IMG/VR virus record: IMGVR_UViG_3300035703_000275
Coordinates: 1-33,849 of that record
DNA: 33,849 nt
Reading direction: 5' to 3' (one strand)
Source: a virus
Positions 4,974 to 30,786 of the stretch are shown here, in pieces; the first letter of the stretch is position 1; every line of letters begins with the position of its first letter. The notes below the pieces were generated by a model, which was not told the DNA's origin, ran no database searches, and worked only from the letters and a program-made list of their open reading frames with translations. The translations under genes and the position numbers were made by a program.

Positions 4974-5872
4974 CAGGCCACCATCAGAACGCGATAAAAG
5001 CTTATCAAGGCTTCATAGGCCAGCGGCACATCAACCGGCGTGCGGTCGCTGTTCACGGCCTCGCGGTTCTCATACCAGTGGCCGATCAGCAGCAGCGCCG
5101 CATGGCGCAGCGAGGCCGGCACCGCGTCATTGCTGGCATAGCCGGCCTGATACGTCACCCGCACTGTGCCAATGCCAGATTCTACCGCAGGCCACGTCAC
5201 ACCATTGGCCGGCACAATCCACGATGCACCGGCAAAGCTACGCAACCGATACTGATTGGCTGCCAGCACCTGTTCAGCGCCAGCTTCGTCGTCGTAGGCA
5301 ACGCCCGTCACCGATACCACCGGCCCGCGCCACAACGGCAGGCGCTGGCGTCCATTGGTTGCCCAGCCCTCAAAGGCCACAGCCACCGCGCGCTGGCGTA
5401 GCACCAGCCCGGTGTCGCGTTCGATCTTGTCAGCCGCCGCACGGATCAGGCCGGTGATGTAGTCATTTTCTTCGCTGTCGATCACGCGCAGATGCGTCTT
5501 GGCCTCGGCCAATGTCAGCGGTGCATTGAGCGCATCAGATTGCGCCACCCGCACCAGAACAGACCGCTGGAAGGTGCGCGACGGGCTGGCGCTGGTGGTG
5601 ACGGTAGCCGTTACAACGCACAACACACCGGCTGCAAACGCTACGTTGTTAGGCTGCGAACAGGTCAGCCAGAAGCGCCCCGACTTGGAAACAGCAACAG
5701 GCGCATAACTGCCGACACCCAGCGCCAGGCCGACGCCCGCACTGGCGGCATCAATAGCCACCGATTGCAGCGAAACGGTTTCGTTGGTGTCCAGCAGATC
5801 GGTAAAGTCGATGACGTAATCCGCCACATCTGACGGATCATGCATACCGGCGAAAAGCGGTGCCTCACTCAT
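4973..5872 (-). CDS. Head-tail connector (gp6-like) with extra N-terminal domain
   Basis: A 299-residue protein made of two parts. Residues about 118-299 start LTLAEAKTHLRVIDSEENDY, followed by 'IRAAADKIERDTG' and ending in a helical segment 'LRHAALLLIGHWYENREAV'. This is the HK97 gp6 / phiE125 gp8-like DNA-packaging connector, which forms a ring under the portal. Residues about 10-112 (DVADYVIDFTDLLDTNETVS ... SRTFQRSVLVRV) look like a separate Ig-like beta domain. In other phages I recall that pattern as a stand-alone small structural protein, so this is probably a fusion. The start overlaps the stop of the repeat protein gene as ATGA. Confidence 0.85.
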   Translation of the reverse strand: MSEAPLFAGMHDPSDVADYVIDFTDLLDTNETVSLQSVAIDAASAGVGLALGVGSYAPVAVSKSGRFWLTCSQPNNVAFAAGVLCVVTATVTTSASPSRTFQRSVLVRVAQSDALNAPLTLAEAKTHLRVIDSEENDYITGLIRAAADKIERDTGLVLRQRAVAVAFEGWATNGRQRLPLWRGPVVSVTGVAYDDEAGAEQVLAANQYRLRSFAGASWIVPANGVTWPAVESGIGTVRVTYQAGYASNDAVPASLRHAALLLIGHWYENREAVNSDRTPVDVPLAYEALISFYRVLMVA

Positions 5873-18347: not shown

Positions 18348-19835
18348 TTAAGCGTCTTCGCCAGCAAACATCATCGCAGGCCGCTCAAAACGGGCGCGTT
18401 CCCAATCAAAAGCCAAATCTTCAACACCAATCTTCCCCGGCAGGCCCATGCGAACCTTGACGGTGGCAACCGTGGTGATGTTGCTATCTTGCTTCTTGCG
18501 GTGGATCACGATCCCGTAGTCAGCCTTATTGGCCCAATGCGATGAGCCGGCGATCATGTAGAGCGTCGGCGGTAAGCTGGCCTGGTCGCTGTTCGGCTTG
18601 GCAGGGTGCGCAACCACAACCACGGCCACCGCGTAATCGCGGGCGAAGCGTTTCAGCAGGCGAATGGCGCGGCCCGTGTATTCGGTTTCGCTTTCGTCGC
18701 GGCCCCGCTTGTGATCCATTTCGTTCCACGGATCGAGAACCAGCACCTTGCAGCCGTCACGCAGCACGGCGATCTTGGCCAGCTCAAGCACCTGTTCAAG
18801 ATCAAGGTCGCTGTCATCGTCAACCGATTGCTGGGCAATGATGGTCAGTCGGTCGCGGATCATCTGGTCAGCCCATGCCCGCTTTTCAGGTGTCAGCCCC
18901 TTGAGATTTGAGCCAACAAGATGCTGGCGCAATTCGTTGACCAGCACCGGCTTGATGGCCGTCTCAAAGCTACCCATGCAGATGTTGACGCCCTGATCCA
19001 TCAGATCCGCAAGGCAAGCCATCATCCACGTTGTCTTGCCGCGACCTGCGTAGCCGGTGACGACCGTGAAGGTGCCGGGCAGCACAGGCCACATATCCCA
19101 CATGCACGGCACACGAACGCGGAACGGCTCCCACGTTGGCGGCTCCGGAAAGTCGTCGATCTTGTAAAGCCCCTGCACCGGATAAGGCTTGGCCATGTTG
19201 ATGCACCGCGTAACGCCAGCCTCGCCGTGCGCCACCAACACATCGTTCAAATCTTTCATGCCAGGCGGGTAATCGATAAACCGGCAGCGTTCGGCACCAA
19301 GCCGGCGCACCAGTTCAGCGGCAAGGATGCGCCCTGGCTCGTCGCCATCGGTGGCGATGATGAACGTCTGCACCCGGTCAAGCAGGCGGCGGGCGTTCCA
19401 GATCGGCGCATAGCGGGCGGCATCGTTGGCCGGGTCAATCGCGCCTTCCGTGGCCTTGGCCGGTGCGCCGTTCGGCACGGACAGCACGCGGGTAAAGCCC
19501 GCCGTCATCGCTGACAGTGCGTCCATCTCCCCCTCGGTGATAATCACCGGCTCGGATGGCTTGAACAGTTCCACATCCGTCAAGCACCGCAGGTTCCACA
19601 GCAGCAAGGGCGCGCCCTCGTCCATGCGAAACGCCTTCCGGCTTGTGAGGCGATACTTGCAGTTGACCTGATCCCCCGTCTCCGGGTCGGCATACGGAAA
19701 GGCCAGCCAATGCCCGCCTTCGCCGCTCATCGTGGTGACGCCAGCGCGCATCGCCGTCTCCACGTCGATCCCGCGCGTTTCCAGAAACTTCATGTGTTCC
19801 CGATGCAGTGGCATTGCTTGCCCCTTTCCATTCAC
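18348..19835 (-). CDS. Phage primase-helicase, T7 gp4 / Twinkle-like (TOPRIM + RecA-like helicase)
   Basis: A 495-residue protein if started at GTG 19835, or 488 from ATG 19814. The TOPRIM domain has EPVIITEGEMDALSAMTAG (Glu near residue 101), 'FIIATDGDEPGR' (about 159-170) and 'MKDLNDVLV'. The helicase domain has the Walker A loop GYAGRGKTTW (about 261-270) and a Walker B-like 'CKVLVLDPWNEMDHKRG', then 'VVVVAHPAKP'. It primes and unwinds DNA at the phage fork. Related proteins carry an N-terminal zinc ribbon. Here that ribbon is encoded immediately upstream in another frame (see the 19435-20001 entry). AAGGGG stands before ATG 19814, so a helicase-only form is possible. Confidence 0.9.
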   Translation of the reverse strand: MNGKGQAMPLHREHMKFLETRGIDVETAMRAGVTTMSGEGGHWLAFPYADPETGDQVNCKYRLTSRKAFRMDEGAPLLLWNLRCLTDVELFKPSEPVIITEGEMDALSAMTAGFTRVLSVPNGAPAKATEGAIDPANDAARYAPIWNARRLLDRVQTFIIATDGDEPGRILAAELVRRLGAERCRFIDYPPGMKDLNDVLVAHGEAGVTRCINMAKPYPVQGLYKIDDFPEPPTWEPFRVRVPCMWDMWPVLPGTFTVVTGYAGRGKTTWMMACLADLMDQGVNICMGSFETAIKPVLVNELRQHLVGSNLKGLTPEKRAWADQMIRDRLTIIAQQSVDDDSDLDLEQVLELAKIAVLRDGCKVLVLDPWNEMDHKRGRDESETEYTGRAIRLLKRFARDYAVAVVVVAHPAKPNSDQASLPPTLYMIAGSSHWANKADYGIVIHRKKQDSNITTVATVKVRMGLPGKIGVEDLAFDWERARFERPAMMFAGEDA

Positions 19836-20001
19836 AGTGGTGGCAAATCCACGTTGAGCCTTTGTCGTCGATCTTCACGCTCAGGCAGCGCACGGTTTTC
19901 TTTTTGCGGTGCGGGCTGCACTGCGGGCATGTCGCCTGATGTTCGCCCTGGCCGTAGTTGCTGAGCCGGATGCCAGCGCGATTCAGAGCGTCGGCAATCA
20001 T
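19435..20001 (-). CDS. Zinc-ribbon N-terminal part of the primase, out of frame with the helicase
   Basis: The frame starts MIADALNRAGIRLSNYGQGE and contains a four-Cys zinc ribbon: CPQC near residues 25-28 and CHHC near residues 53-56, followed by EWKG. This is the zinc-binding domain expected at the start of a T7 gp4-like primase. After 'CEWKGA' the frame becomes arginine/glycine-rich noise, while the helicase frame begins exactly there (GKGQAMPLHREHMKFLETRG). The two join if one base is skipped at AAAGGGG (plus-strand 19821-19827). The 550-residue fusion would have normal family length. Either a one-base sequence error or mutation, a +1 frameshift, or separate translation of the two parts explains it. 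The 3' two thirds of this frame are probably not coding. Confidence 0.55.
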   Translation of the reverse strand: MIADALNRAGIRLSNYGQGEHQATCPQCSPHRKKKTVRCLSVKIDDKGSTWICHHCEWKGASNATASGTHEVSGNARDRRGDGDARWRHHDERRRRALAGLSVCRPGDGGSGQLQVSPHKPEGVSHGRGRALAAVEPAVLDGCGTVQAIRAGDYHRGGDGRTVSDDGGLYPRAVRAERRTGQGHGRRD

Positions 20002-20720
20002 CAGACCGCGCCCATGATGCGGCTGCGCTCGTCGTCGTTCATGCCAGCGCCTTCGCTTGGCCGGTTGAGGTTGACAGCGTTGCGTTTGAGGCAGGCGGCG
20101 ATGAACGGCACCGGATCAACAGCTCGCTCGATTTGGGATTGGGTGATGGCCTTGGCTGTTTCAGCCTGCCCATAATCGCGGCACCACTTGCCGATAAGCC
20201 CGCCTGATTTTTGCCCGCCAAGATACTTTTTAGCGGCGTCCCAAAACGCCTTATCCGGCGACGCTTCAGCGTCAGTAGATTTATCTACTGAACTCTTATC
20301 TCTATCTCTATCTCTTATGCTTGAGCCTGCCTTAAGCCCCCGCTCTTGCAAGTCGCTGTTTTCATTAGCCGCAGCCTGTTTTTCGGCACGCTTTCGTCCA
20401 CCGTTCGCGCCTGCTTCGCTGAGCTTTCGCAGAAGTTTCGCCTGACTTTCGAGTTCGTTTTGGGCGCGTTGATTGGTCAGCAGGCCATCAACTTCGGTCA
20501 GTTTGCCGGCTTCAATCAGGCGCTCAACAAGCGACTTTGCAAGCCTGGCAGAGCATCCCATGACGCCGGCCAGATACCGCCAATCGGCAGGCACAGAACC
20601 GCCGCGCGCATAGATCAGGTCAAGCACCACGATGTAGGCACCGATAGCTTCCGGCCCCATGCCCTGCACGCCCTCAAGGAAGTCGCGCGGGTTGTGTTTA
20701 TACCAAGCTGCGCCGCTCAT
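20001..20720 (-). CDS. DUF1376-like (YdaU-type) replication protein
   Basis: A 239-residue protein whose N-terminus reads 'WYKHNPRDFLEGVQGMGPEA', then 'GAYIVVLDLIYARGGSVPAD'. This is the pattern of DUF1376 / YdaU-type phage replication proteins ('Y..dyl..t..Ls..e.GaY..Lld.yw..ggplp.d'). A winged-helix-like region follows (CSARLAKSLVERLIEAGKLT). The middle (about 105-155) is charged and low-complexity (KSSVDKSTDAEASPDKA). The C-terminal 'CRDYGQAETAKAITQSQIER' and 'DPVPFIAACLK' resemble DnaA-N/helicase-loader ends. It probably loads the helicase encoded next. The start overlaps the previous stop by four bases. Confidence 0.8.
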   Translation of the reverse strand: MSGAAWYKHNPRDFLEGVQGMGPEAIGAYIVVLDLIYARGGSVPADWRYLAGVMGCSARLAKSLVERLIEAGKLTEVDGLLTNQRAQNELESQAKLLRKLSEAGANGGRKRAEKQAAANENSDLQERGLKAGSSIRDRDRDKSSVDKSTDAEASPDKAFWDAAKKYLGGQKSGGLIGKWCRDYGQAETAKAITQSQIERAVDPVPFIAACLKRNAVNLNRPSEGAGMNDDERSRIMGAV

Positions 20721-20911
20721 GCTGCCCTCAATTCGTGCAATTCCAGCATCGCGGCGAACGTCTCGCCGTTGATGGTGCCGGCCTCGTAAAGCGTTGCCAG
20801 AAGCTGCTTGTGATGCGCTGGCGACGTGGCCACGCGCTGCGCCAGATCAAGCATGACGCTGGCCATCGCAGAGCCTATGGAGAGCGCCTGATCAGGCAAC
20901 ATGGCGGTCAT
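20717..20911 (-). CDS. Hypothetical small protein
   Basis: A 64-residue helical protein (MTAMLPDQALSIGSAMASVM, ending ETFAAMLELHELRAA). It is coupled on both sides: the ATG overlaps the RusA-like stop and the stop overlaps the start of the DUF1376-like gene. No family recognised. The clear coupling and matching codon use support it as a gene. Confidence 0.7.
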   Translation of the reverse strand: MTAMLPDQALSIGSAMASVMLDLAQRVATSPAHHKQLLATLYEAGTINGETFAAMLELHELRAA

Positions 20912-21255
20912 GCCAGCACCTCAAGCAAAACCGCCCCGCCCCGCACTGGGTCAGCCCAGCGATAAGTCGGCTGAAACCGTGCATCATTGACACCCCAGGC
21001 CAGCGCCACGCCGTCTTGCGCGTGCTTCAGGCTGGCAATGACGTTGTCCATGTCGCGGGCGCGGTTATCAGGCGGGCAAAGCGTCCACAGCAGCGCCACC
21101 GGGCCAGCATCAGGCAGCGCGGGCCTGCCGGCAGCATACGCCAGCGTGTGCGCTTCACCCTTGGCGATCTTGGCCACGCGGCTGCGCTGCATGAAGTGAG
21201 TGCGCGCGTTAGGTGATAGCCGCTTGTCGGGCCACGGCAGAGCAACGCGCGTCAT
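20908..21255 (-). CDS. rusA: RusA-like Holliday junction resolvase
   Basis: A 115-residue protein from ATG 21255: MTRVALPWPDKRLSPNARTH, with the catalytic-type segment 'RARDMDNVIASLKHAQDGVA' followed by 'GVNDARF'. The D-x-DN-x6-K-x3-D arrangement and the late ND are the RusA signature. The enzyme cleaves four-way junctions made during phage recombination and replication. The 21255 start overlaps the stop of the small upstream gene as ATGA, which decides it against an ATG at 21306. Length is normal for RusA. Confidence 0.88.
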   Translation of the reverse strand: MTRVALPWPDKRLSPNARTHFMQRSRVAKIAKGEAHTLAYAAGRPALPDAGPVALLWTLCPPDNRARDMDNVIASLKHAQDGVALAWGVNDARFQPTYRWADPVRGGAVLLEVLA

Positions 21256-21383
21256 GCCGTCCACCCCAGGGCGCGCTGCACATCGTTCATCGTGCGGCCA
21301 GTCCACATGGCAATGAACGGCACGCTATGGCCACGCCACAACAGGTAGCGCGCCTGCCAGCGCCAAGGCAGTAGCGCGATCAT
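21252..21383 (-). CDS. Small hypothetical protein, 43 residues
   Basis: This short frame starts at ATG 21383, inside the stop of the preceding gene (ATGA), and stops at the start of the RusA-like gene (ATGA). It encodes MIALLPWRWQARYLLWRGHS and ends 'TMNDVQRALGWTA'. The double overlap fills the only gap in the operon, which supports it as real. The aromatic/arginine composition is unusual. The C-terminal part resembles the helix of a small DNA-binding motif, but I cannot assign it. Confidence 0.65.
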   Translation of the reverse strand: MIALLPWRWQARYLLWRGHSVPFIAMWTGRTMNDVQRALGWTA

Positions 21384-22165
21384 GCGGCCACGTTCCGCCA
21401 AGCATCCGGCTGCCAACCGCGCCGTTCAGCTTCCGCAATCAATTCATCAGCCTGCCAAAGCCGGCCCGAAAAACGATAGCCGGGCAAGTTCGCGTCATAG
21501 ATGCGCAACGGGTAGCAAGGCCCCTTGCGTTGCAACCACCGCATCGCCTGATCTGCGCGCGTCACAGCCGAAGTCTGCGCATCTTTGACCAGCGGCAACT
21601 TCCAGCCCGTTGGCTTCATGGCCACCGGGTTGCGCTTCGGAGCATCTTTCGCGGCAGCCAGGCGCGCGGCCTTCTGCAACGCCGCGTTACGCCGGCCCGC
21701 TTCGACCATCGCCCGCGCACCGGCAGTCGCTACCAGCGCCCGCGCCTGATCGCCCGCCTCTTGCAGCCAGTATTCAATCTGGCGTTCGCTGCACTTGTAG
21801 ATGGCGCGCAGCCGTGTCTTGCCGTTGATCTTGCACTGCGCCATAAAATCAGCCGGCACAGGCGCACGAAGCAACCGCTTTTCACGCTTCTCGCCAATGT
21901 CGGCAAGCCAGCGCTTAACAATCGCGTGGCGCGCACGGTAGTGGCGCATAAGCTGCTCAGTCGTCATCGTGCTGGCCACGGCAGCGAAGTCGTCAGGCAT
22001 CGCGCGGATACGGTCACGCTTTACACCGGCTTCATCACGCCACCGCCGCACCACAAACATGCCGGCACGGTAATGCGCGCACAATTCAATGTCAGTCATA
22101 ACAGCGGCGTGTTCGGCAAAGTCAGACGGCGCAGGGCGCTCAAGATGCTGGTTTTTGCGGGTCAT
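21380..22165 (-). CDS. DNA-binding protein with repeated HTH-like modules
   Basis: A 261-residue protein. Residues 1-140 hold three related modules of about 40-48 residues: 'APSDFAEHAAVMTDIELCAH', 'MPDDFAAVASTMTTEQLMRH' and 'VPADFMAQCKINGKTRLRAI'. Each runs on to a 'YxxxxxxVxRWxxExG'-like helix (HYRAGMFVVRRWRDEAG; HYRARHAIVKRWLADIG; IYKCSERQIEYWLQEAG). This looks like tandem helix-turn-helix units. The C-terminal part (about 200-261, 'DQAMRWLQRKGPCYPLRIYD') resembles a separate small winged-helix-type domain. It may be a replication initiator, a regulator or an organiser of the origin. Its place at the head of the replication genes fits. Coupled to both neighbours. Confidence 0.75.
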   Translation of the reverse strand: MTRKNQHLERPAPSDFAEHAAVMTDIELCAHYRAGMFVVRRWRDEAGVKRDRIRAMPDDFAAVASTMTTEQLMRHYRARHAIVKRWLADIGEKREKRLLRAPVPADFMAQCKINGKTRLRAIYKCSERQIEYWLQEAGDQARALVATAGARAMVEAGRRNAALQKAARLAAAKDAPKRNPVAMKPTGWKLPLVKDAQTSAVTRADQAMRWLQRKGPCYPLRIYDANLPGYRFSGRLWQADELIAEAERRGWQPDAWRNVAA

Positions 22166-22632
22166 CAGCGCACACCCGCTTGCAGATCGGCCAAACGTGA
22201 CCGCAGCGTGTCGATCACAGCGCCCGCGTCCGCAACCTCGGCGGCCATGTCCAACAACTCGCGGTCGCTGAAGCGGCCATCTGGGCTTGTGGCCATCATC
22301 TTGTGCAGCAGGCTGACCACCGGCAGCGCATCGGTGCGGGACGTGTAATCAAGCTTGACCAGCACATAGCCAGCCAGCCCAAACGCAGCATTGGCCATAG
22401 CTGGCCCCAGCGCGACCGTAGAGGCGACCAGCGTGGCTGCACTCATGCCGGATTCGCCCTTGCGATACAGCGCGGCAGCATCAGCAGATCGGCCAACCTT
22501 GAGGCCAAGCTGCAAATCAGTCAGATCGCGTTCCGCCTTGATGTCAGTAAGCACCACAGCAATTGCAGTGTTCACCGAAGTCTCGGATATATTGCTCCAC
22601 ATTCGGTTGTTGTTCGGTTGTATTGCAGCCAT
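22165..22632 (-). CDS. Small HTH-like early regulator, CII-like in position
   Basis: A 155-residue protein: MAAIQPNNNRMWSNISETSV, then 'LTDIKAERDLTDLQLGLKVG' and 'ADAAALYRKGESGMSAATLV', which has the look of a Cro/CI-type helix-turn-helix (residues about 28-70). The C-terminal half is helical (DRELLDMAAEVADAGAVIDT). It is the first gene after a strong terminator and heads the replication operon, the position of CII- or replication-control proteins in lambdoid phages. GGAAG lies 8 bases before the ATG. Function is inferred from fold impression and place only. Confidence 0.65.
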   Translation of the reverse strand: MAAIQPNNNRMWSNISETSVNTAIAVVLTDIKAERDLTDLQLGLKVGRSADAAALYRKGESGMSAATLVASTVALGPAMANAAFGLAGYVLVKLDYTSRTDALPVVSLLHKMMATSPDGRFSDRELLDMAAEVADAGAVIDTLRSRLADLQAGVR

Positions 22633-22661
22633 TGTGCTTCCAATGATTACGATGAACTCAG

Positions 22662-22698
22662 AAAAAAGCGGCCCGACCGACTTTCACAGCCGGGCCGC
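22662..22698 (-). terminator. Intrinsic terminator after the HNH/AP2 gene
   Basis: On the minus strand GCGGCCCG pairs with CGGGCCGC across a 15-base loop and is followed by TTTTTT. It lies between the stop of the HNH/AP2 gene (22792) and the start of the 22632 gene. Leftward early transcripts would end here unless antitermination occurs, much like a tR1/tL1 site of lambda. Confidence 0.88.
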
Positions 22699-22791
22699 AG
22701 GTGGTGGCGCGGGTCGCTGCGCCACAAAGACGGGTTGCCCCGATCAGCCGGGCGAGGCTGACCGAGGCGCAAAAGGTCGGAGACGCGAACT

Positions 22792-23382
22792 TCACGCGCA
22801 ATCTCCAAACAAAGCCAATTCAACAGCGGCGCGAGCGGCGGCTGCCTCATGAACACTTTCAAAACGACCAATTCTGTGTTCGTGGCCATCAATCGTAATG
22901 TAGGCCAACCATGTGCGGCATCGCTTTTCGCGGCGAATGCCAGCAAAACCAGTCGTGTTGTTTATTTGAATGCGCCGATTGTGCTGATTTTGCGAAACGG
23001 ATACGCGGCGCAAATTCTGTCGGGTGTTGTTCAACCCGTTGCCGTCAACGTGGTCAATTTCCATTCCGGCCTGATGCTCAACCAACCAATGGTGCATATA
23101 TTTGCCAGCGCCAGTCTTGGCGTAAACAGCGCGGATAGTTCCGTCAGGACGCTTTGTTTCCAAGGCGCACCAAATATGGTGCCGGACTTTTTCAAGGTCG
23201 CGCACGTCGACAATGGCGTAATAACCCTTGGTCAACGCAATCCACGCCTCGTTGCCAACCACAATTGGTTCCGGCGGCCTAGTGCGCCTCACGCTGCGCA
23301 AATTTACGGGCCGGGAGACAGTGGGGTCGCTCAACCGGCCCGACCGGCGCGCAGGGTGGGAGGCGCGCGGGTTCGAGATCAT
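22792..23382 (-). CDS. HNH endonuclease with AP2-like domain
   Basis: A 196-residue protein. The middle holds 'KYMHHWLVEHQAGMEIDHVD' followed by GNGLNNTRQNLRRVS, the H...H/DH-x-N-x3-N...L pattern of an HNH nuclease. Downstream is 'NNTTGFAGIRREKRCRTWLA' with 'IGRFESVHEAAAAR', an AP2/integrase-like DNA-binding domain. Such HNH-AP2 proteins are mobile or homing-type endonucleases common in phages. The ATG overlaps the stop of the Cro-like gene (ATGA), so it is produced with Cro in the immunity region. The N-terminal 35 residues are basic and low-complexity, and a later start is possible. Confidence 0.85.
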   Translation of the reverse strand: MISNPRASHPARRSGRLSDPTVSRPVNLRSVRRTRPPEPIVVGNEAWIALTKGYYAIVDVRDLEKVRHHIWCALETKRPDGTIRAVYAKTGAGKYMHHWLVEHQAGMEIDHVDGNGLNNTRQNLRRVSVSQNQHNRRIQINNTTGFAGIRREKRCRTWLAYITIDGHEHRIGRFESVHEAAAARAAVELALFGDCA

Positions 23383-23606
23383 GCTGCGGCGTCGACCGGA
23401 TACAGGTCTGGGCGCAGGTCATGGCGCGAAATTTCAAACATCAGTTCTATCAAAAGAGCCGCGTGTCGCGACACGCGACCGGCAGCCACCCATTCCGAAA
23501 CGGCCTGCTGGGTAAACCCCAGCCTGTCGGCTAACGCGGCTTGCGTGCCGCCAGCAGCGTCGATTGCGCGCTGGAGCGCACCGAACTCGGAGGTTTGAGC
23601 TGTCAT
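23379..23606 (-). CDS. Cro-like repressor (YdaS-type HTH)
   Basis: A 75-residue protein: MTAQTSEFGALQRAIDAAGG, then TQAALADRLGFTQQAVSEWV, a clear helix-turn-helix of YdaS/Cro type (about residues 21-42), then 'VSRHAALLIELMFEISRHDL'. It is divergent from the CI-like gene with 88 bases between, the classical lysis-lysogeny switch. The frame is open far upstream to 23858, inside the CI gene, but the ATG at 23606 sits just after the promoter. No Shine-Dalgarno sequence is visible and the predicted leader is only about 5 bases. Confidence 0.85.
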   Translation of the reverse strand: MTAQTSEFGALQRAIDAAGGTQAALADRLGFTQQAVSEWVAAGRVSRHAALLIELMFEISRHDLRPDLYPVDAAA

Positions 23607-23617
23607 GGGCGCGACAA

Positions 23618-23646
23618 ATACAATTCTCTTGTCATCAAAGCAACAA
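23618..23646 (-). promoter_or_regulatory. Leftward early promoter for cro
   Basis: On the minus strand a -35 box TTGTTG (plus 23641-23646) is 17 bases from a -10 box TTGTAT (plus 23618-23623). Both boxes overlap the two ACAA-N5-TTGT operators. The expected transcript start is only about 5 bases before the cro ATG at 23606. Confidence 0.65.
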
Positions 23647-23655
23647 GAAACTTGT
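23620..23655. promoter_or_regulatory. Operator pair between cI and cro
   Basis: Two 13-bp sites with the form ACAA-N5-TTGT: ACAATTCTCTTGT (23620-23632) and ACAAGAAACTTGT (23643-23655). The second is part of a perfect 6-bp inverted repeat, AACAAG/CTTGTT. Centres are 23 bp apart, about two helical turns. The same motif recurs only at the other early promoter (24974-25008), so these are the likely CI/Cro binding sites. Confidence 0.8.
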
Positions 23656-23694
23656 TCGAGCAACGAATCGCCTTTGCCGGTATTCCTTTGACCC

Positions 23695-24366
23695 ATGGAT
23701 GATGCAGCGAAACAGGGGGCAGCGCTGGCCGCCGCACGCAAGGCGAGGGGTTGGTCGCAGTCCGCTTTAGCAGAACGTGCGCGCGCGCTTATTCCAGAAC
23801 ACGAAGAGATCAAACTTAGCCAGCAACTTATCCAGCAATTTGAATCCGGCACTACCAAAAAGGTGCCGCGCTGGGTTCGCTATCTCCGACAGGCGCTTGA
23901 AGCTGCCGATGATCGCATTGACACCTCGCCCGATCTGCCACCCGTCGATCCGTCAGTTTCCTATCTTGAAGTTGAGGTGTTGCCGACGTTTGGCGGCATG
24001 GGAGGCGGTGGCAATGGGGAAGGGGAAACGGGGCTTGCCCTATTGCCGCGCTCTTTGCTGGAGGACCAACTCCGCGGACGGCCAAAGGACTTCCTGCTAA
24101 TCGAAGTGCGCGGCGACTCAATGATACCCGAATTCTTGCATGGCGATCAGATACTTATCGATCGCCGCGACGTGAACCCGCGCCAGCCAGGCCCGTTCGC
24201 GTTGTTTGACGGAGATGGCATCGTTGTCAAGCTAGTGGAGCGCATACCCGGCCGACGCGATTACTACCGAGTATTTTCCGCCAACCCCCGTTATTCAGAG
24301 TACGAAGTGCAGGAGGAAGATGTGCGGATTCTTGGGCGGCCGGTTTGGTTTGCACGCCGGCTTTGA
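23695..24366 (+). CDS. CI-like prophage repressor with S24 peptidase domain
   Basis: A 223-residue protein. Residues about 5-60 form an XRE-type helix-turn-helix (ALAAARKARGWSQSALAERA, later 'QQLIQQFESGTTKK'). A glycine-rich linker (residues 99-112, GGMGGGGNGEGE) joins it to a LexA/S24 domain with the serine motif VRGDSM (Ser near 142) and the lysine in GIVVKLVERI (Lys near 179). It should keep the lysogen and cleave itself when RecA is activated. The exact cleavage dipeptide is not obvious; it may lie in the linker. It is divergent from cro and convergent with the zinc-ribbon gene, whose stop is 4 bases away. Confidence 0.92.
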   Translation: MDDAAKQGAALAAARKARGWSQSALAERARALIPEHEEIKLSQQLIQQFESGTTKKVPRWVRYLRQALEAADDRIDTSPDLPPVDPSVSYLEVEVLPTFGGMGGGGNGEGETGLALLPRSLLEDQLRGRPKDFLLIEVRGDSMIPEFLHGDQILIDRRDVNPRQPGPFALFDGDGIVVKLVERIPGRRDYYRVFSANPRYSEYEVQEEDVRILGRPVWFARRL

Positions 24367-24370
24367 TCGC

Positions 24371-24871
24371 TCAGTCCTTATCCCCAAAGCTGCCTGCAAA
24401 AGGCGAACCAGCTGCAATACGGGTAATGCCATCAGATGCACGTACAGATATGTAAGTATTAGGATCTGCACGGCCATCAGTTTGATCGCATGCCAAAGCT
24501 ATAGCAACACCCTGGCGTTGACCCAGACTTAGCGCGCGCCACACTCTTTCGTCTACGTTTACACCATACTTATTACTGCTAACGATTAGCCCGGTTCGGC
24601 TCAACGTGCCGATTAGTTTTCGAGCTTCACTAACATTGCACGAAGCAAAGCTTTGTGCGGCAGTGCCGTTAGTAGTATTGCCCGTGCCGGTTGTATTAGA
24701 CGAATTGCACATTGCCAACATGACGCAACCACCCACAATCCAAACCAGCATTGTGAGGTAGGGGCCAGCCTTGCTGCGACCAATCTCCTCTTCCGTAAAC
24801 TGATACCCGCAATATCGGCACACCCTAGCTGTGTTCTGAATTTTCTCGGCACACGATGAGCATCGCTTCAT
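24371..24871 (-). CDS. Zinc-ribbon membrane protein, probable lysogenic cargo gene
   Basis: A 166-residue protein. The N-terminus is a four-Cys zinc ribbon, MKRCSSCAEKIQNTARVCRY with CGYQF next (CxxC ... CxxC). A single membrane segment (about 38-55, YLTMLVWIVGGCVMLAMC) follows, then an N/T/G-rich linker and a C-terminal domain of about 95 residues with 'SFASCNVSEARKLIGTLSRT' and a second Cys. The layout (cytoplasmic zinc ribbon, one helix, external domain) is common in proteins of unknown function. It lies alone on the minus strand between the repressor and the early operon, a typical place for genes expressed in the prophage. Superinfection exclusion is possible but unproven. No clear promoter seen. 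Confidence 0.8.
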   Translation of the reverse strand: MKRCSSCAEKIQNTARVCRYCGYQFTEEEIGRSKAGPYLTMLVWIVGGCVMLAMCNSSNTTGTGNTTNGTAAQSFASCNVSEARKLIGTLSRTGLIVSSNKYGVNVDERVWRALSLGQRQGVAIALACDQTDGRADPNTYISVRASDGITRIAAGSPFAGSFGDKD

Positions 24872-24973
24872 TTTTACCGGCCTCCCCGTTCACCCCAGCA
24901 ATCTATCGCGCGCGGCAGATTCTTACCAGTCGGCCAGTTGTCGCCCAGGCAAGCGCCCCCTTGTGAAGTTTAC

Positions 24974-25008
24974 ACAAAAAACTTGTTGACACATAACAAG
25001 ACTCTTGT
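24974..25008. promoter_or_regulatory. Operator pair at the rightward early promoter
   Basis: Two 13-bp sites ACAAAAAACTTGT (24974-24986) and ACAAGACTCTTGT (24996-25008) share ACAA-N5-TTGT with the sites between cI and cro. Centres are 22 bp apart. They flank and overlap the -35 and -10 boxes of the early promoter, so binding would block it. Confidence 0.8.
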
Positions 25009-25013
25009 ATTTT
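24986..25013 (+). promoter_or_regulatory. Rightward early promoter
   Basis: A consensus -35 TTGACA (24986-24991) and a -10 TATTTT (25008-25013) are separated by 16 bases. The expected start is about 30 bases before the ATG at 25050. AGGGAG (25038-25043) provides the ribosome binding site. This promoter should drive the operon that runs to the integrase. Confidence 0.75.
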
Positions 25014-25049
25014 TTCCCGTCGCCGCACGTTGCGGTGAGGGAGACGACG

Positions 25050-25376
25050 ATGCAACACCTTACAGCCCGCAATGGCCGCAGCGAGTGGGTCAGCGACGGC
25101 GAAGCCAGCGACCAAGCCATTGACGCCGCTCTCTTGAGCGAATTGGCCCGCCGCATCGGCATGGATTGGCACGAAGCCGACGCCGAGCTTCAGAACCACG
25201 CCCCAGATGACGCCGAAGCTGAAGCCGCCGCTGATCAGGCGCGGGCCTGCACCGACAACGATATTGTCCGCGAACTGCTGCGCATGATGGCCGCCCGTCG
25301 CGCTGAGATGGTGCGGTTTCAGGCAGCCCGGCTCATGCACATGACGGCCCGCGACCTAATGGAGCCGGCCAAGTGA
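25050..25376 (+). CDS. Hypothetical acidic early protein
   Basis: A 108-residue protein from ATG 25050: MQHLTARNGRSEWVSDGEAS, with an acidic alanine-rich middle (HAPDDAEAEAAADQAR) and a helical end (LRMMAARRAEMVRFQAARLM). AGGGAG six bases upstream decides this start; the frame is open upstream but runs through the promoter. It is the first gene of the rightward operon and so would be among the first proteins made on infection. Small acidic early proteins are sometimes host-takeover or anti-defence factors. I do not recognise this one. Confidence 0.75.
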   Translation: MQHLTARNGRSEWVSDGEASDQAIDAALLSELARRIGMDWHEADAELQNHAPDDAEAEAAADQARACTDNDIVRELLRMMAARRAEMVRFQAARLMHMTARDLMEPAK

Positions 25377-25555
25377 GCGCCGCCGCCCCGCCCGCCGTGA
25401 CGCTTCGAGACGCTTTTGCAGCCGTCGCATTGATTGGTGTGCTGCCGGCGTTTGCAGACGATCTTCGGCACGGTGATGAAGCGGTTGTCGCTAACATGGC
25501 GTTCGATATTGCCGACGCGATGCTGGCGAAGCGCGACCAGGATGACGGCCAATGA
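25373..25555 (+). CDS. Small conserved-type phage early protein
   Basis: A 60-residue protein from a GTG start overlapping the previous stop (GTGA). It contains 'VTLRDAFAAVALIGVLPAFA' and ends 'VANMAFDIADAMLAKRDQDD'. The pattern 'lRD.FA..al.gll ... a..Ay.iADaMl..R' recurs in small proteins of early operons in many phages and prophages near recombination genes. The function is unknown. The hydrophobic stretch is short and probably not a membrane segment. It is coupled on both sides. Confidence 0.75.
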   Translation: MSAAAPPAVTLRDAFAAVALIGVLPAFADDLRHGDEAVVANMAFDIADAMLAKRDQDDGQ

Positions 25556-25755
25556 CCGGCACCCGCGCAAGGCCGTGGCTGCCGGCCATCAACCAGCACG
25601 AGGCCAACAGCCGCGCCGCGCTGATCGACCCGCGCCCCGAACCGGGCTTCTGGCCGACGCTGGCCGCCGCGATCCGCACACACCCGCGCACATGGCGCGT
25701 GGCCGTTACACTCACTGCTGGCGTGTTGCTGGCACAGATTGGGAGCATGATCTGA
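25552..25755 (+). CDS. Small single-pass membrane protein
   Basis: A 67-residue protein: MTGTRARPWLPAINQHEANS, a proline-rich middle, and a C-terminal hydrophobic segment 'WRVAVTLTAGVLLAQIGSMI' that may span the membrane. The ATG overlaps the previous stop (ATGA) and its stop overlaps the next ATG (TGATG). No family recognised. It is one of two tiny membrane proteins in this early operon. Confidence 0.65.
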   Translation: MTGTRARPWLPAINQHEANSRAALIDPRPEPGFWPTLAAAIRTHPRTWRVAVTLTAGVLLAQIGSMI

Positions 25756-26426
25756 TGGATATGAGCGACAACATTGCCGATCTGGCTGCCGCGCTGGCAA
25801 AGGCGCAGGCCGATCTAGAAGGCGCTGCAAAGAAGTCCAACAACCCCGCGTTCCGCACCAAGTATGCAGACTTGGGCGCGGTTTGGGATGCCTGGCAGGA
25901 AGTCGGCCCCAAGAACGGGCTGTCTGTGGTGCAGTTCCCCACTGACATGGCCGATCCCAAAATGGTCGGCATGACCACGATGCTGCTGCACACCAGCGGC
26001 CAGTGGATGCGCGGCGTGTTCTCGCTGCCCGCTGGCAAGCAGGACGCCCACGGCTATGGATCCGCAGTTACATATCTGCGCCGCTTCTCGCTGTCCGCCG
26101 TGGTGGGAGTTTGTCCCGTGGACGATGATGGCATCGCTGCCGCCAAAGTTGCGACGCGCCAAGCCCCTGCTAACGAAGCCGCGCAGGCAGACGACCTCGC
26201 ACAAGCGCCGAACGTTCGCGCCAAGATGACGGCAGATCAGTGGCTTGACGACCAGAACAAGCGCCTCGATGCCATGCTCAAGGCCGCTGACATTGACGGC
26301 ATCCACAACTGGCCCGCCGCCGAAGCAAAGGCCTTGGCCAAGCTAAAAGACACCAACCCGGAAGCTCACGCCAAGGCGCTGCGCATCCATGCAAATGCCC
26401 TGTCCGCCATCCGCGCGGCAGGCTGA
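25755..26426 (+). CDS. ERF-family single-strand annealing recombinase
   Basis: A 223-residue protein: MDMSDNIADLAAALAKAQAD, then 'SNNPAFRTKYADLGAVWDAW', 'GLSVVQFPTDM', and 'DAHGYGSAVTYLRRFSLSAV'. The last segment is the conserved G-x4-T-Y-x-RR-x2-L motif of ERF proteins. These anneal complementary single strands during phage recombination and genome circularisation. The C-terminal 80 residues are helical and variable, as in the family. Pairing with SSB directly downstream is a standard arrangement. Confidence 0.92.
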   Translation: MDMSDNIADLAAALAKAQADLEGAAKKSNNPAFRTKYADLGAVWDAWQEVGPKNGLSVVQFPTDMADPKMVGMTTMLLHTSGQWMRGVFSLPAGKQDAHGYGSAVTYLRRFSLSAVVGVCPVDDDGIAAAKVATRQAPANEAAQADDLAQAPNVRAKMTADQWLDDQNKRLDAMLKAADIDGIHNWPAAEAKALAKLKDTNPEAHAKALRIHANALSAIRAAG

Positions 26427-26440
26427 GAGAGGAACGACAC

Positions 26441-26821
26441 ATGCAGTTCATCACCATCGCCGGCAATGTCGGCAAAGACGCCGCCACCAAGGACGTGAAC
26501 GGCAACAGCGTGACCGAGTGGAGCGTGGCCGTCAGCAATGGCCGTGACAACGCCAGCACCTGGTTCAAGTGCAGCATGTGGGGTGCGCGTGGCGGCAAGG
26601 TCGCCGGCTATATCCGCAAGGGCGACAAGATCACCGTCGCGGGCCGGCTCACCGTTGGCGTGTATGACGGCAAGCCCGACTGCAAGATCGACGTGTCTGA
26701 GGTGACCCTTCAAGGCGGCAAGCAGGATGTGCCGGGCCGGTCGTACCAGGATGAAGGCGATAGCCGACCGCGTGGCGCTGCGCCCACCCGCGACGATCTT
26801 GACGACGATGTTCCGTTTTGA
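26441..26821 (+). CDS. ssb: Single-stranded DNA-binding protein (SSB)
   Basis: A 126-residue OB-fold protein: MQFITIAGNVGKDAATKDVN, with 'VTEWSVAVSNGRD', 'TWFKCSMWGARGGKVAGYIR', 'KGDKITVAGRLTVGVYDGKP'. It ends in the acidic tip DDLDDDVPF, the docking tail for partner proteins in bacterial SSBs. It coats single strands for the ERF protein and the replication machinery. GAGAGGAACG lies upstream of the ATG. Length is short but normal for phage SSB. Confidence 0.95.
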   Translation: MQFITIAGNVGKDAATKDVNGNSVTEWSVAVSNGRDNASTWFKCSMWGARGGKVAGYIRKGDKITVAGRLTVGVYDGKPDCKIDVSEVTLQGGKQDVPGRSYQDEGDSRPRGAAPTRDDLDDDVPF

Positions 26822-26859
26822 GCGCCACACAGTTTGAAGCGCGGCAATAACGCCAGCGC

Positions 26860-26902
26860 GCCGGGGTGGGCCTTACGTCTTCCCCTATTCGCCCACCCCG
26901 GC
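26860..26902 (+). other. Perfect 12-bp inverted repeat between ssb and the next gene
   Basis: GCCGGGGTGGGC (26860-26871) and GCCCACCCCGGC (26891-26902) form a perfect 12-bp stem with a 19-base pyrimidine-rich loop. No T-run follows, so it is not a standard intrinsic terminator. It ends 17 bases before the next ATG. It could act as an RNA stability or processing element, as an attenuator, or as a protein binding site. Confidence 0.7.
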
Positions 26903-26919
26903 ACTAACAGGACAAACCC

Positions 26920-27633
26920 ATGAACGCCCCCGCCATGATTGGCCATAACAGCAGCCCCTACATTGCCGCCCGAGACACGATTGCGGACGCAGTAGGCGAG
27001 GCGCGTGAATGGCTGGACGGCAAGCCCGTCGCTGACAAAGATCAAGCCGATGGCTTGGCGCATCTGCTGGACATGCTGCGCAAGGCCCACAGGGCCGCCG
27101 ATGACGCGCGCAAGATCGAGGCCAAGCCGTTTGATGACGGCAAGGCCGAGGTGCAGTCCAGGTATAAGCCGATCTTGACTGACGCAGAGCGCGCGATTGA
27201 AGCTGTGAAGATGACGCTGGTAAAGTGGCAGGCCGCCGAACAGCGCCGCGCCAACGAAGCCGCCCGCATTGCCCGCGAAGCCGCCGAACGTGCGCAGCGC
27301 GAGGCAGAAGAAGCCCGCCGCGCCGCCGATCTGGCCAACCTGGCCGAACGTGAAGCCGCAGACCGAAAGCTGGCAGAGGCCGAACGATTGGCAAAGGCCG
27401 CCGACAAGGCCGAGGCAGCCCCTGTAGGCGCGAAAGGCGCTTATGCCGCCCGTCGCACTGCATTGGTAACAATCCACTTTGCGGCGTCCCTGAATGACCC
27501 TGCCGCCGCCCTCAAGTGGTGCAAGGAGCATCAGCCGCATTTCCTCAAGGTGGCCGTGCTGGACATGATTGCAAAAGGCCGCTGGCAGAACGTTCCCGGC
27601 GTGACCTACGAAACGCGCGAGACGGTGCGCTGA
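26920..27633 (+). CDS. Hypothetical coiled-coil early protein
   Basis: A 237-residue protein: MNAPAMIGHNSSPYIAARDT, then 'AHRAADDARKIEAKPFDDGK' and a long alanine/arginine/glutamate coiled coil at about residues 107-167 (ARIAREAAERAQREAEEARR). The C-terminal domain (about 172-237) has 'YAARRTALVTIHFAASLNDP' and 'ALKWCKEHQPHFLKVAVLDM'. Proteins of this layout, opening with 'igHNs', are common in early regions of alphaproteobacterial phages and have no assigned role. The C-terminal part resembles the ends of phage proteins found beside ERF/SSB. It may bridge recombination factors. This is an inference. Confidence 0.8.
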   Translation: MNAPAMIGHNSSPYIAARDTIADAVGEAREWLDGKPVADKDQADGLAHLLDMLRKAHRAADDARKIEAKPFDDGKAEVQSRYKPILTDAERAIEAVKMTLVKWQAAEQRRANEAARIAREAAERAQREAEEARRAADLANLAEREAADRKLAEAERLAKAADKAEAAPVGAKGAYAARRTALVTIHFAASLNDPAAALKWCKEHQPHFLKVAVLDMIAKGRWQNVPGVTYETRETVR

Positions 27634-27995
27634 TGCTTGCACGTCGCCACAAAAACAGCGGACGCCAGAATATTGGCAGGCGCTTTGCTTCCCACCGGCA
27701 ATGGCTGCGCGGACACGTTTGCGCCGTCGCTGGTGATGCTTGCGGCGGTGACATTGAGTGCGCCCACGTTGAAGGCAGCGGCACGGGCGGCATGGGCATG
27801 AAGGCGGACGATTGGGCGACCATTCCGCTGTGCCAATACCACCATGCAGAACGCCACCGGATTGGCTGGCGCACGTTTGATGCACGTCACCGCCTGGACG
27901 CACTGGCACTGGCCAAGGAACTCGCCGCCAGATCGCCGCACATTCAACGGGCAGCGCGTGAGGCTGGTTACATTGTGGACGAGGTGGACGCATGA
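27633..27995 (+). CDS. HNH-like / DUF968-type putative nuclease
   Basis: A 120-residue basic protein from ATG 27633 (TGATG overlap with the previous stop): MLARRHKNSGRQNIGRRFAS. It has CAVAGDACGGDIECAHVEGS followed by 'GTGGMGMKADDWATIPLCQY' and HHAERHRIGW. The Cys pairs, the 'C-H' and the final 'C-x2-HH' fit the zinc-dependent HNH fold of DUF968-type and related phage nucleases, often in ninB/rusA-type recombination blocks. It probably processes recombination intermediates. Starts further upstream in this frame lie inside the coiled-coil gene and are unlikely. Confidence 0.8.
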   Translation: MLARRHKNSGRQNIGRRFASHRQWLRGHVCAVAGDACGGDIECAHVEGSGTGGMGMKADDWATIPLCQYHHAERHRIGWRTFDARHRLDALALAKELAARSPHIQRAAREAGYIVDEVDA

Positions 27996-28441
27996 ACGAC
28001 AAGCCGCCCCTGATATTCACCGCCAAGCTGGGGATGCTTGCCCCGGTCAACGCTGCCGCCCGCGCTGCTGTTGCCGCCTGTGTTGGCGATGTGACCGTGA
28101 CCATCAAGCGCGCCACGAAGAACCAGCGCCGCCGCAGCCTCTATTGGATTGTGGCCGATCTGGTGGCGGGCATTATGAACGATTTGCATGACCTGGATAT
28201 TACCGACGCCGAATTGCACGACCAGACGCGCGAACGGCTTGGGTTGGTGACGCGCATCACCCTGCCATCGGGTGCCGTCATCAAGCGCCTGCACAGCACC
28301 AGTGACGCCGCGATGCAGGAGCCGGAACGCGCCGCATACACAACGAAAGCGTTTGCCCTGTGGGCGCGGTGGACGGGCGTACCCGTTGAAACGCTGACCG
28401 CAGAAGGCCGCAAGATCGAGGAAGGACGAAACGCAGCATGA
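27992..28441 (+). CDS. Putative recombination protein (NinB/DUF1367-like impression)
   Basis: A 149-residue protein: MNDKPPLIFTAKLGMLAPVN, then 'VTVTIKRATKNQRRRSLYWI' and 'LHDQTRERLGLVTRITLPSG'. The 'K..rt..Q.r.yw.ll.di' style segment is reminiscent of the NinB/Orf and DUF1367 families, which assist recombination in lambdoid phages, but the match is only by pattern. The ATG overlaps the previous stop (ATGA). The C-terminus is basic and charged (TLTAEGRKIEEGRNAA). Neighbours (HNH-like, ParB-like, SSB, ERF) agree with a DNA-metabolism role. Confidence 0.65.
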   Translation: MNDKPPLIFTAKLGMLAPVNAAARAAVAACVGDVTVTIKRATKNQRRRSLYWIVADLVAGIMNDLHDLDITDAELHDQTRERLGLVTRITLPSGAVIKRLHSTSDAAMQEPERAAYTTKAFALWARWTGVPVETLTAEGRKIEEGRNAA

Positions 28442-28584
28442 CCACGCCCATCCACCACATCACCCGCCGCCCCCATGAAGAGCCGCCCATCCGCGACGAC
28501 AGCGGCTTGTGGCTAGGCTGGGCGCTGCTGCTGTGTGCGGTTGTGCTGCCGGTGGGCGTGGCTGTGCTTTGGGGGGTGATGTGA
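28438..28584 (+). CDS. Small single-pass membrane protein, 48 residues
   Basis: This short frame begins at ATG 28438 within the previous stop (ATGA) and ends at 28584, where the next gene starts (TGATG). It encodes MTTPIHHITRRPHEEPPIRD followed by a C-terminal hydrophobic segment 'WLGWALLLCAVVLPVGVAVL'. This gives a charged, probably cytoplasmic N-terminus and one membrane helix. No family known. The double overlap supports it as a gene. Confidence 0.7.
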   Translation: MTTPIHHITRRPHEEPPIRDDSGLWLGWALLLCAVVLPVGVAVLWGVM

Positions 28585-29378
28585 TGAAGTCGCCGTTTAA
28601 TGCCGCCAAGGGAGCGCCGCCGACGCTCGAATGGGTGTCGCTTGATCGCCTGCATATTGACGACCGCTATCAGCGCGCCATTGCCGACAGTAAGCCGGCG
28701 CAAGCCCTGATTAACCGCATAGCCCGCGATTGGGACTGGCGCTTGTTTCAGCCGTTGTCTGTTGCCAGGCGCGCTGCTGGCGAGTTATTTGTGATTGACG
28801 GCCAGCATAGGCTTGCAGCCGCCACATTGCGCGGTGATCTGCCCCATCTGCCATGCGTGATTGCAGCTTTTGCCGGCGTGGAGGATGAGGCCGCCGCCTT
28901 TGCCGCCATGAACCGCCAGCGCCGCGCAATGTCAAAGCTGGAAACTTACCGCGCCGAAATTGCAGCAGGCGACACGCAAGCTGTTTTGGCGATGCGATTG
29001 ATTGAGCAGGCCGGTCTGTCATTGGCGCGCACTACCAACCCGCTGGCATGGGCACCTGGGCAAATTGATTGCATAGGCGGCGTTGTTCGCGTGCTTAACC
29101 GCCATGGACGCCAAGCTGCCGTAAATGCGCTTACAGCGATGGGCGAAGCTTGGGGGCAAACGCGGCTTAGTTGCCCCGGCTCGGTATTGGCGGGACTTGC
29201 CGACATTTACCTAAACCCGCCGCCTGACTTTGATCCAGATGCGCTTATTGACGCGTTGTCGCAAACCACCGGGCGCGATTTGCTGGAAGAGGCGGGCGAG
29301 TGGCGCAACATTTACAGTAAGTCCGAACACAAGATGCGCGCCGCTATTCTGGCCCGTATGGCGCAGGAGGCAGCATGA
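28584..29378 (+). CDS. ParB-like / DUF6551-type nuclease-domain protein
   Basis: A 264-residue protein from ATG 28584. Residues about 16-85 form a ParB/sulfiredoxin-like domain: LEWVSLDRLHIDDRYQRAIA, then 'RLFQPLSVARR' and the hallmark LFVIDGQHRLAAA. Then 'AFAAMNRQRRAMSKLETYRA' follows, and a helical C-terminal domain. Phage proteins of this type bind or nick DNA or act as regulators. The exact activity cannot be read here. Starts upstream of 28584 would overlap the small membrane gene. TGATG coupling supports the chosen ATG. Confidence 0.8.
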   Translation: MKSPFNAAKGAPPTLEWVSLDRLHIDDRYQRAIADSKPAQALINRIARDWDWRLFQPLSVARRAAGELFVIDGQHRLAAATLRGDLPHLPCVIAAFAGVEDEAAAFAAMNRQRRAMSKLETYRAEIAAGDTQAVLAMRLIEQAGLSLARTTNPLAWAPGQIDCIGGVVRVLNRHGRQAAVNALTAMGEAWGQTRLSCPGSVLAGLADIYLNPPPDFDPDALIDALSQTTGRDLLEEAGEWRNIYSKSEHKMRAAILARMAQEAA

Positions 29379-29692
29379 CCAACCTGCAAGCACTCGCCAG
29401 CAAATACCGCCGCGCGCTGCGTAATGGCACCGGATGCCGCCTGACACATGAGGAGTTGCAGGCACTCGCCGGCATTGGCACGCTTGAAACACTCCAGATC
29501 GCAGAAGCGCGGGAATTGCAGTCATCATGGCAAACAAAACACAGCACAAGCGTCGAACCACCAGCCCGTTCATCATGGGCGACTTCTGGCTCGACCGCAG
29601 GCCAGACGGCAAATCAGCCGCCTGGCAAATTGCTCGGTATGACGCCAAGGCCAAGTGTGTCCGCTATGTTAGCACTCGCTGCGAAGCCCTAG
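29375..29692 (+). CDS. Small helical protein overlapping the integrase start
   Basis: The frame starts at ATG 29375 within the previous stop (ATGA): MTNLQALASKYRRALRNGTG, then 'CRLTHEELQALAGIGTLETL' and QIAEARELQSSW. The first 50 residues look natural and helical, perhaps a small excisionase-like or hypothetical protein. The last 55 residues (from about 29527) overlap the integrase gene in another frame and are Ser/Pro/Ala-rich without pattern. The 3' part may be accidental read-through after loss of an earlier stop, or the overlap is real. Function unknown. Confidence 0.5.
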   Translation: MTNLQALASKYRRALRNGTGCRLTHEELQALAGIGTLETLQIAEARELQSSWQTKHSTSVEPPARSSWATSGSTAGQTANQPPGKLLGMTPRPSVSAMLALAAKP

Positions 29693-30786
29693 AGGATGCC
29701 AAGACGGCACTTGAGGCGCATTACGCCGCCGCCAAGGCCATCAGCCAGCAGGACGCCAGCGCCGCCGTATTGCCGCAACTGCTGCTATATTGGGAAGAGC
29801 GCGGCCAGCACGTTGTCAGCCCTAGCCAGATCGCCAGCAGCCTGCGGGCCTTCATTGGTTTTTTGATGCAGGACGATGCCACCCCCGGCGTGACCTACGC
29901 AGAATGCAACCCGGCGCTGTTCCGGCGCTTTCAGAACTGGCGCATGGGGCCGCACGCCTATTCGGTCGATTGGAAGGGCCGCAGCTACACGCACAAGCAT
30001 ATTGGCGTCAGCGGCAACGCGGTGCAGCGCAACCTGGAAGATATTAGCGCGGCCCTGAACTACGCGGTCAGGGAGGGGCGGGTGCCATACGCGCCGCACG
30101 TTCCGTCAGTGGAAGCGCGGCATCGTCCCAAGAAGCCGGTGACGGTGCTAACGCTAGACCAGCTTGCCGCGATCATCGGCTATGCGCTGGATGATCCCAC
30201 GCTGTTGCGTTTCGTGCTGGCACAGGTGGCTACGCTCACCCGCCCCGAAGCCGTCCGCGCATGGCAGCCGTGGCATCAAGCCGATCTTGCGCTGGGCGTC
30301 ATCGACACGCACCCGACCGATTGGCAGCGCACCAAAAAGCGCAATCCGATTCTGCCGGTGCCGACATGGTATCGTGATTGGCTGGCCGAATGGATGGCAT
30401 CCGGTGAGGTGCTGCCGACACAGACCCGCCGACGCTGGGCGACAATGCGCGCAGCAATAGGCCTGCCCGACGATACCGACGCCAAGATCATCCGCCGCAC
30501 GATGGCGACTTGGTTGAACGCTGCCGGCGTGCCTGAGTTTGAGGTCAAGACGATGCTCGGCCACACGGCAGGCGGCGCGACAGACCATTATATCCACGTC
30601 CGACCTGATCACCTGGTCGCCGCACGAACCACGCTTGATTCGCTATGGCTGCGCATTATGTTCTCTGTCCGTTCATGGCGGACGAACCATCGACGAACCA
30701 CAAACCAGTTTGGCAAGATTATCGTGACTGACCTAATTCCGTCTATTCCCCACAATATCAAACACTTGGCGGCTGGTGGGCGCTGA
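29527..30786 (+). CDS. int: Tyrosine-type phage integrase
   Basis: A 419-residue protein. The N-terminal part (about 15-75) is an arm-binding-like domain (MGDFWLDRRPDGKSAAWQIA). The core-binding part spans about 80-190. The catalytic part has box I Arg in LAQVATLTRPEAV (Arg near 239), a Lys around 271, box II 'KIIRRTMATWLNAAG' (Arg near 323), LGH (His near 346) and the nucleophile in DHYIHV (Tyr near 355). Box II begins with Lys instead of the usual His. The last codons and the stop lie inside the tRNA-derived attP core, so this gene abuts its own target site. Confidence 0.93.
   Translation: MANKTQHKRRTTSPFIMGDFWLDRRPDGKSAAWQIARYDAKAKCVRYVSTRCEALEDAKTALEAHYAAAKAISQQDASAAVLPQLLLYWEERGQHVVSPSQIASSLRAFIGFLMQDDATPGVTYAECNPALFRRFQNWRMGPHAYSVDWKGRSYTHKHIGVSGNAVQRNLEDISAALNYAVREGRVPYAPHVPSVEARHRPKKPVTVLTLDQLAAIIGYALDDPTLLRFVLAQVATLTRPEAVRAWQPWHQADLALGVIDTHPTDWQRTKKRNPILPVPTWYRDWLAEWMASGEVLPTQTRRRWATMRAAIGLPDDTDAKIIRRTMATWLNAAGVPEFEVKTMLGHTAGGATDHYIHVRPDHLVAARTTLDSLWLRIMFSVRSWRTNHRRTTNQFGKIIVTDLIPSIPHNIKHLAAGGR
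30681..30701 (+). repeat. Left arm-type repeat of attP (two copies)
   Basis: Two tandem copies of GACGAACCA[T/C], 11 bases apart, within the end of the integrase gene. The same double repeat occurs at 30903-30923, differing by one base. The two copies flank the attP core at about 72 and 80 bases. They are probable arm binding sites for the integrase N-terminal domain. Confidence 0.7.

Follow-up and report, generated by a model that had tools for sequence, protein, structure and literature searches.

In phage lambda, the repressor gene cI lies between two operator sets, OR and OL: OR fills the gap that separates cI from cro, and OL sits on the promoter of the operon for recombination and integration. 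Each set contains three 17-bp sites; in the lambda record (J02459) OL occupies 35591–35651 and OR 37951–38014, with cI and rex (rexA and rexB, between cI and OL) in the interval. The two sets are 2.3 kb apart, and CI loops OR and OL by octamer formation (PMC3708714). This plan is standard and is already known in an alphaproteobacterial temperate phage, Rhizobium phage 16-3, whose annotated record (DQ500118), the source of the operators used here, places pairs of sites on both sides of the repressor gene c: OL2 (ACAATCAATTGT) and OL1 (ACAAGCAATTGT), and OR1 (ACAATGGTACTTGA) and OR2 (ACAATTGTAGTTGT). The −35 of each 16-3 early promoter falls between or beside the paired sites, and the PL side leads to xis and int. 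The arms of the 16-3 operators are ACAA...TTGT, separated by 4 bp in the OL sites and by 6 bp in the OR sites, and the 16-3 repressor carries an SQQ recognition helix (SQQAINN). Phage 434 has ACAA half-sites as well, in 14-bp ACAA-N6-TTGT operators that its CI and Cro share, and the glutamines of QQ-x-I-x-Q in its repressor contact the ACAA arms.

We compared these systems with an immunity locus in the window, the whole IMG/VR record of 33,849 bases (33.8 kb) from a phage whose closest matches lie in sphingomonad-type bacteria. An earlier note on this DNA had proposed a two-locus, four-site system built on the motif ACAA-N5-TTGT; all four of its sites are exact and correctly placed, with start-to-start spacings of 23 bp at OR and 22 bp at OL, in line with the 22–23 bp between centres that it gave. 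The OR site on the cro side (23620–23632, ACAATTCTCTTGT) overlaps the −10 of a putative leftward cro promoter (TTGTTG-17-TTGTAT, 23618–23646, minus strand), and the site on the cI side (23643–23655, ACAAGAAACTTGT) overlaps its −35. OL lies 1.35 kb from OR: site 1 (24974–24986, ACAAAAAACTTGT) abuts the −35 of the rightward early promoter, the PL equivalent (TTGACA-16-TATTTT, 24986–25013, plus strand), while site 2 (24996–25008, ACAAGACTCTTGT), a perfect palindrome, fills the promoter spacer up to the −10. Both promoters are thus present where the note had them overlapping the two pairs, and none of 400 random places held a promoter as good as the rightward one. These four sites very likely serve as OR and OL in a lysis-lysogeny switch of the lambda type.

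The genes around the sites are arranged as such a switch predicts. The cI-like repressor (23695–24366, plus strand, 223 aa) combines a 434-like helix-turn-helix (LSQQLIQQFESGTTKK) with an S24 C-terminal half that retains the Ser-Lys pair (invariant S142 and K179). The divergent cro-like repressor (23379–23606, minus strand, 75 aa) has a YdaS/Cro-type helix-turn-helix with recognition helix FTQQAVSEW, and the operators in the cI-cro gap overlap its promoter. The leftward operon continues beyond cro (18348–23382, minus strand) with an HNH gene (22792–23382), other ORFs without assignment and a primase/helicase (18348–19835), followed by head and tail genes. Rightward, a 108-aa ORF (25050–25376, plus strand), whose ATG is preceded by a GGGAG-type ribosome site, is followed on the same strand (25755–30786) by an Erf annealing protein (25755–26426), SSB (26441–26821), an exonuclease-like protein (26920–27633) and an integrase (29527–30786). 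By gene order and operon logic, the OR side drives cro and replication and the OL side drives Erf, SSB, exonuclease and integrase. The cro promoter ends 11 nt from the cro ATG in the window, which should leave the cro mRNA with next to no leader. Across the 22 loci listed (the window, 23606–23623, and 21 relatives, which share this promoter geometry), the operator nearest to cro always overlaps the −10 and starts 11–15 bp from the ATG; judged by these positions, cro is probably transcribed with little or no leader.

The comparison largely supports a mirrored lambda OL/OR plan, a parallel, together with its precedent in 16-3, that the earlier note had not drawn. As in lambda, the repressor gene stands between the two operator sets, OR separates cI from cro, OL sits on the promoter of the recombination/integration operon, and an accessory gene occupies the interval between cI and OL. 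The window differs from lambda in orientation, in its 13-bp ACAA sites and in having two plus two sites, as 16-3 does, rather than three plus three; its accessory gene points against cI, whereas that of lambda is co-transcribed with cI. The position of the −35 relative to the paired sites and the ACAA...TTGT arms are shared with 16-3, which has no accessory gene between c and OL. The 5-bp spacer at all four window sites falls between the two values of 16-3 and differs from the 6 bp of the 14-bp ACAA-N6-TTGT operators of 434.

In the whole record, exact ACAA-N5-TTGT occurs five times, at 23620, 23643, 24974, 24996 and 25255, against a mean of 0.35–0.36 expected per shuffled record (0.36 for dinucleotide shuffles), and a random scatter of copies was not seen. 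The tally in the earlier note therefore stands for the four operator sites and falls one short overall, having overlooked the fifth copy (25255–25267, ACAACGATATTGT). This copy is probably a chance occurrence, because the first rightward ORF encloses it and nothing corresponds to it in L049 or L079, whose loci contain no exact motif outside the two operator regions. Among 1000 local-composition shuffles, none gave four or more sites and none gave even one pair 15–45 bp apart. When all dyad words with 4-bp arms and spacers of 3–8 were considered, ACAA-N5 was the only one with two pairs 0.3–2.5 kb apart in the window, and none of these words gave two such pairs in any of 100 local shuffles.

The recognition helix of the window CI resembles that of the phage 434 repressor. 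A comparison of the helix-turn-helix with all PDB sequences matched only phage 434 repressors, aligned through QQ-x-I-x-Q; the match is weak on its own (E 0.47–0.9), the turn between the helices is longer than in 434, and the remainder of the domain, beyond the recognition helix, shows weak similarity. The AlphaFold2 model of CI has a mean pLDDT of 79 and a pTM of 0.56, with low interdomain confidence. Foldseek matched the modeled S24 half to the C-terminal domains of the LexA, lambda and 186 repressors, which supports the S24 assignment and says nothing specific about the oligomer formed. A motif, FGGMGGGG, precedes the S24 core, and the position matching the Ala-Gly cleavage site of lambda is Gly-Gly in the window and in L019; most relatives have F-A-G-M-G at this place. 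With Gly-Gly in place of Ala-Gly, RecA-triggered self-cleavage might be weaker in the window CI.

A nucleotide search of a phage collection with 23379–25400 gave no match, and tblastn of CI against the same collection gave distant S24 matches only. Relatives came instead from a CI scan that yielded 19 viral contigs (some near-duplicates) and one Novosphingobium contig sharing the S24 half, with two lower hits discarded; L024 and L025 were left out for low similarity. A genome search added the Sphingomonadaceae prophages L046–L051 and a second search L079–L083 (L056 is the same prophage as L050). L032 and L033, which have a related recognition helix on a different repressor half, were not used as evidence.

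The repressors of L049 and L050 carry a helix-turn-helix of the window kind (43% and 38% identity), and QQ opens the recognition helix in all five window-type repressors; with the ACAA half-sites of the window, this agrees with operator specificity of the 434 type. In oriented coordinates, ACAA-N5-TTGT occurs at both loci in L049 (7171, 7194 and 7220; 8493 and 8516) and in L050 (6649 and 6669; 7692 and 7715). L079 came to light once the prediction had been made; its 12 kb contain three exact copies (5543, 6303 and 6326), all of them at the two positions predicted, and copies with one mismatch lie at 5524 and 5569. L055 lacks an exact copy, but each of its two loci has a pair of one-mismatch copies spaced 23 bp apart. 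Sites aligned with the cro-side OR site of the window are found in all four of these relatives. The L055 repressor (4899–5642) joins the window-type DNA-binding domain to a different S24 half, and the two-locus pairs are kept in the one-base variant. Phage records of other classes contain the exact motif twice in about 295 kb, with no copy near the repressor, and ten phage records with other repressors or from L055 contain it twice in about 339 kb. The two-locus, four-site proposal is thus upheld in the relatives, where the motif is retained with similar DNA-binding domains and is replaced at both loci in those with other domains.

About 24 relatives share the S24 half and carry other DNA-binding domains, their N-terminal halves falling into several classes. 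In nearly all of them a class-specific dyad is found both upstream of cI and 10 to 1640 bp downstream of it. A scan that did not assume the window motif recovered the dyads upstream of cI as a pair downstream in most loci; it missed L011, L015, L018 and L019 because their arms are longer, and the class consensus found both sets there. With the class consensus motifs (TGCGATNATCGCA, TAGGCAN4TGCCTA, TAGCAN4TGCTA, GTGCGN5CGCAC and ACAAGANTCTTGT), both operator sets were located in all 21 loci first examined, and L048 added a TTCGAN3TCGAA class. For a lock-and-key test, each locus supplied dyads solely from upstream of cI, and these were compared with the region downstream of cI in every locus. 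Mean mismatches were 1.6 for the own region, 1.9 within the class and 3.6 for other classes. The Mann-Whitney p values were 2e-8 (own region against other classes) and 1e-18, and the observed sum was reached in none of 20,000 column permutations; since related loci are not independent, these figures overstate certainty. L046 failed the test, and L015, L018, L020 and L047 scored weakly in the automatic procedure despite sites that are clear by eye. The low scores of L020, L022 and L047 are in part an effect of the scoring: their operators are identical to those of class B, which was counted as a different class. Classes B and C have operators and Cro type in common, with CI helices that differ somewhat. 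Operator specificity thus shifts together with the repressor DNA-binding domain, as among lambdoid immunities.

The geometry of the downstream promoter is also largely shared. The −35 of the best rightward promoter precedes OL site 2 by 9–12 bp in 16 of the 23 relatives and by 10 bp in the window, the rest having weak consensus scores, so that OL2 holds a fixed place on a TTGAC-type promoter in most relatives. OL sites are spaced 22–23 bp apart in the window type, L007 and L048 and 31–34 bp apart in the others, equal to two or three helical turns. Several relatives, including L049 and L079, have three OR sites, compared with two in the window; this difference weighs against the switch reading, as do the failed and weak lock-and-key results and the weakness of the PDB match.

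The sequences show the sites, their statistics, their places on promoters, their conservation and their covariation with the DNA-binding domain; that CI and Cro bind them, that binding is cooperative, that RecA triggers induction and that a loop forms are inferences. The S24-type CI (23695–24366) would bind as dimers, with its 434-like recognition helix reading the ACAA half-sites. Lysogens would carry dimers at 23620 and 23643 that shut off the leftward cro, replication and late operon, and dimers at 24974 and 24996 that shut off the rightward recombination and integration operon, so that one repressor would silence both early transcripts and give superinfection immunity. The two dimers predicted at each promoter would flank the −35 on the same DNA face, about two helical turns apart, which would suit cooperative binding. 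Cro, which in the window-type class usually has the same QQ residues, would probably compete for these sites, and repressor oligomers might join OR and OL over 1.35 kb in a DNA loop.

Other readings of the sites differ widely in how well they account for these observations. Promoters are AT-rich, the motif has only eight fixed bases and one of its five copies (25255) looks like chance, yet chance recurrence at promoters has next to no probability: not a single pair arose in 1000 local shuffles, and relatives repeat the two-locus pattern, whose return in independent prophages refutes this reading. Short ACAA-arm palindromes do occur in many regulons, which would suit a host regulator unconnected with immunity. 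This too is highly improbable, and we rejected it, because at the two loci alike the motif changes with the DNA-binding domain of the phage repressor, and phages with other domains lack it near the repressor. A rather unlikely alternative, though a better one than either of these, is that the sites are mainly those of Cro, or that Cro and CI bind with different preferences at the two loci. The Cro helix does change in step with the CI class: [TS]QQ is present in four of the five window-type (D-class) Cros, and in class A TT-P-S-R in Cro accompanies TT-x-N-R in CI. This change with class suggests, without proving, that both proteins recognise one set of sites, and the sharing of operators by the two proteins of 434 is in keeping with it. 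On the other side, L049 combines ACAA-N5-TTGT operators with a Cro that carries TQP in place of TQQ, and classes B and C have operators and Cro type in common with CI helices that are somewhat different.

With the four sites read as operators of CI, the two loci could still be bound independently, the 1.35-kb distance being without meaning and no loop being formed, and we give this slightly less than an even chance. It fits the OR-OL distances among relatives, which range from 0.7 to 2.3 kb with no preferred value, the placement of each pair on its own early promoter, where it could repress without the other, and the two plus two rather than three plus three sites. Against it stand the looping of lambda CI over 2.3 kb through octamers (PMC3708714) and the predicted resemblance of the S24 half to the C-terminal domains of lambda, 186 and LexA, a fold that is silent on oligomer type. 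By analogy with lambda, looping between OR and OL is plausible.

The accessory, or cargo, gene of the window (24371–24871, minus strand, 166 aa) is convergent with cI, and its product combines a zinc ribbon with an apparent membrane segment. It had no relative among the viral contigs, and its candidacy as a known defence gene was dropped for want of any PADLOC match or viral relative. L011, whose operators differ, also has a gene for a zinc-ribbon protein at this position, running against cI (6424–7104). The cargo gene that the earlier note placed between the loci holds for the window and most relatives but not for L007, L008, L015 and L079, which have no gene between cI and OL. Small ORFs that begin within the last codons of cI are present in most relatives (L012, L016, L017, L018, L019, L020, L022 and L026) and often have a signal-peptide or lipoprotein start; the product in L018 matches Adhesin_E. 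Such starts fit co-transcription with cI, which the opposite strand precludes for the window gene. In position, the slot just after cI resembles lambda rex and may likewise serve genes expressed in the lysogen.

Six specificities can be proposed from these operators: ACAA-N5-TTGT, TGCGA-N3-TCGCA, TAGGCA-N4-TGCCTA, TAGCA-N4-TGCTA, TTCGA-N3-TCGAA and GTGCG-N5-CGCAC. We think it reasonably likely that the phages sharing the S24 half form one immunity family, in which this oligomerisation half is constant and the DNA-binding domain, Cro and both operator pairs are exchanged as a set, giving at least six specificities, with the 13-bp ACAA operator as a third spacing of the 434/16-3 kind. These observations extend the operator plan of lambda and 16-3 to the little-studied phages of sphingomonad-type bacteria. 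They also supply a natural lock-and-key set, in which one repressor body carries several DNA-binding domains with matching operators at two places each, and which could be used to predict mutually excluding prophages and to test how far a repressor dimer tolerates operators of 12, 13 or 14 bp when the ACAA arms are kept constant. If replacement within one S24 family is indeed set-wise, immunity groups would be predictable from sequence alone.
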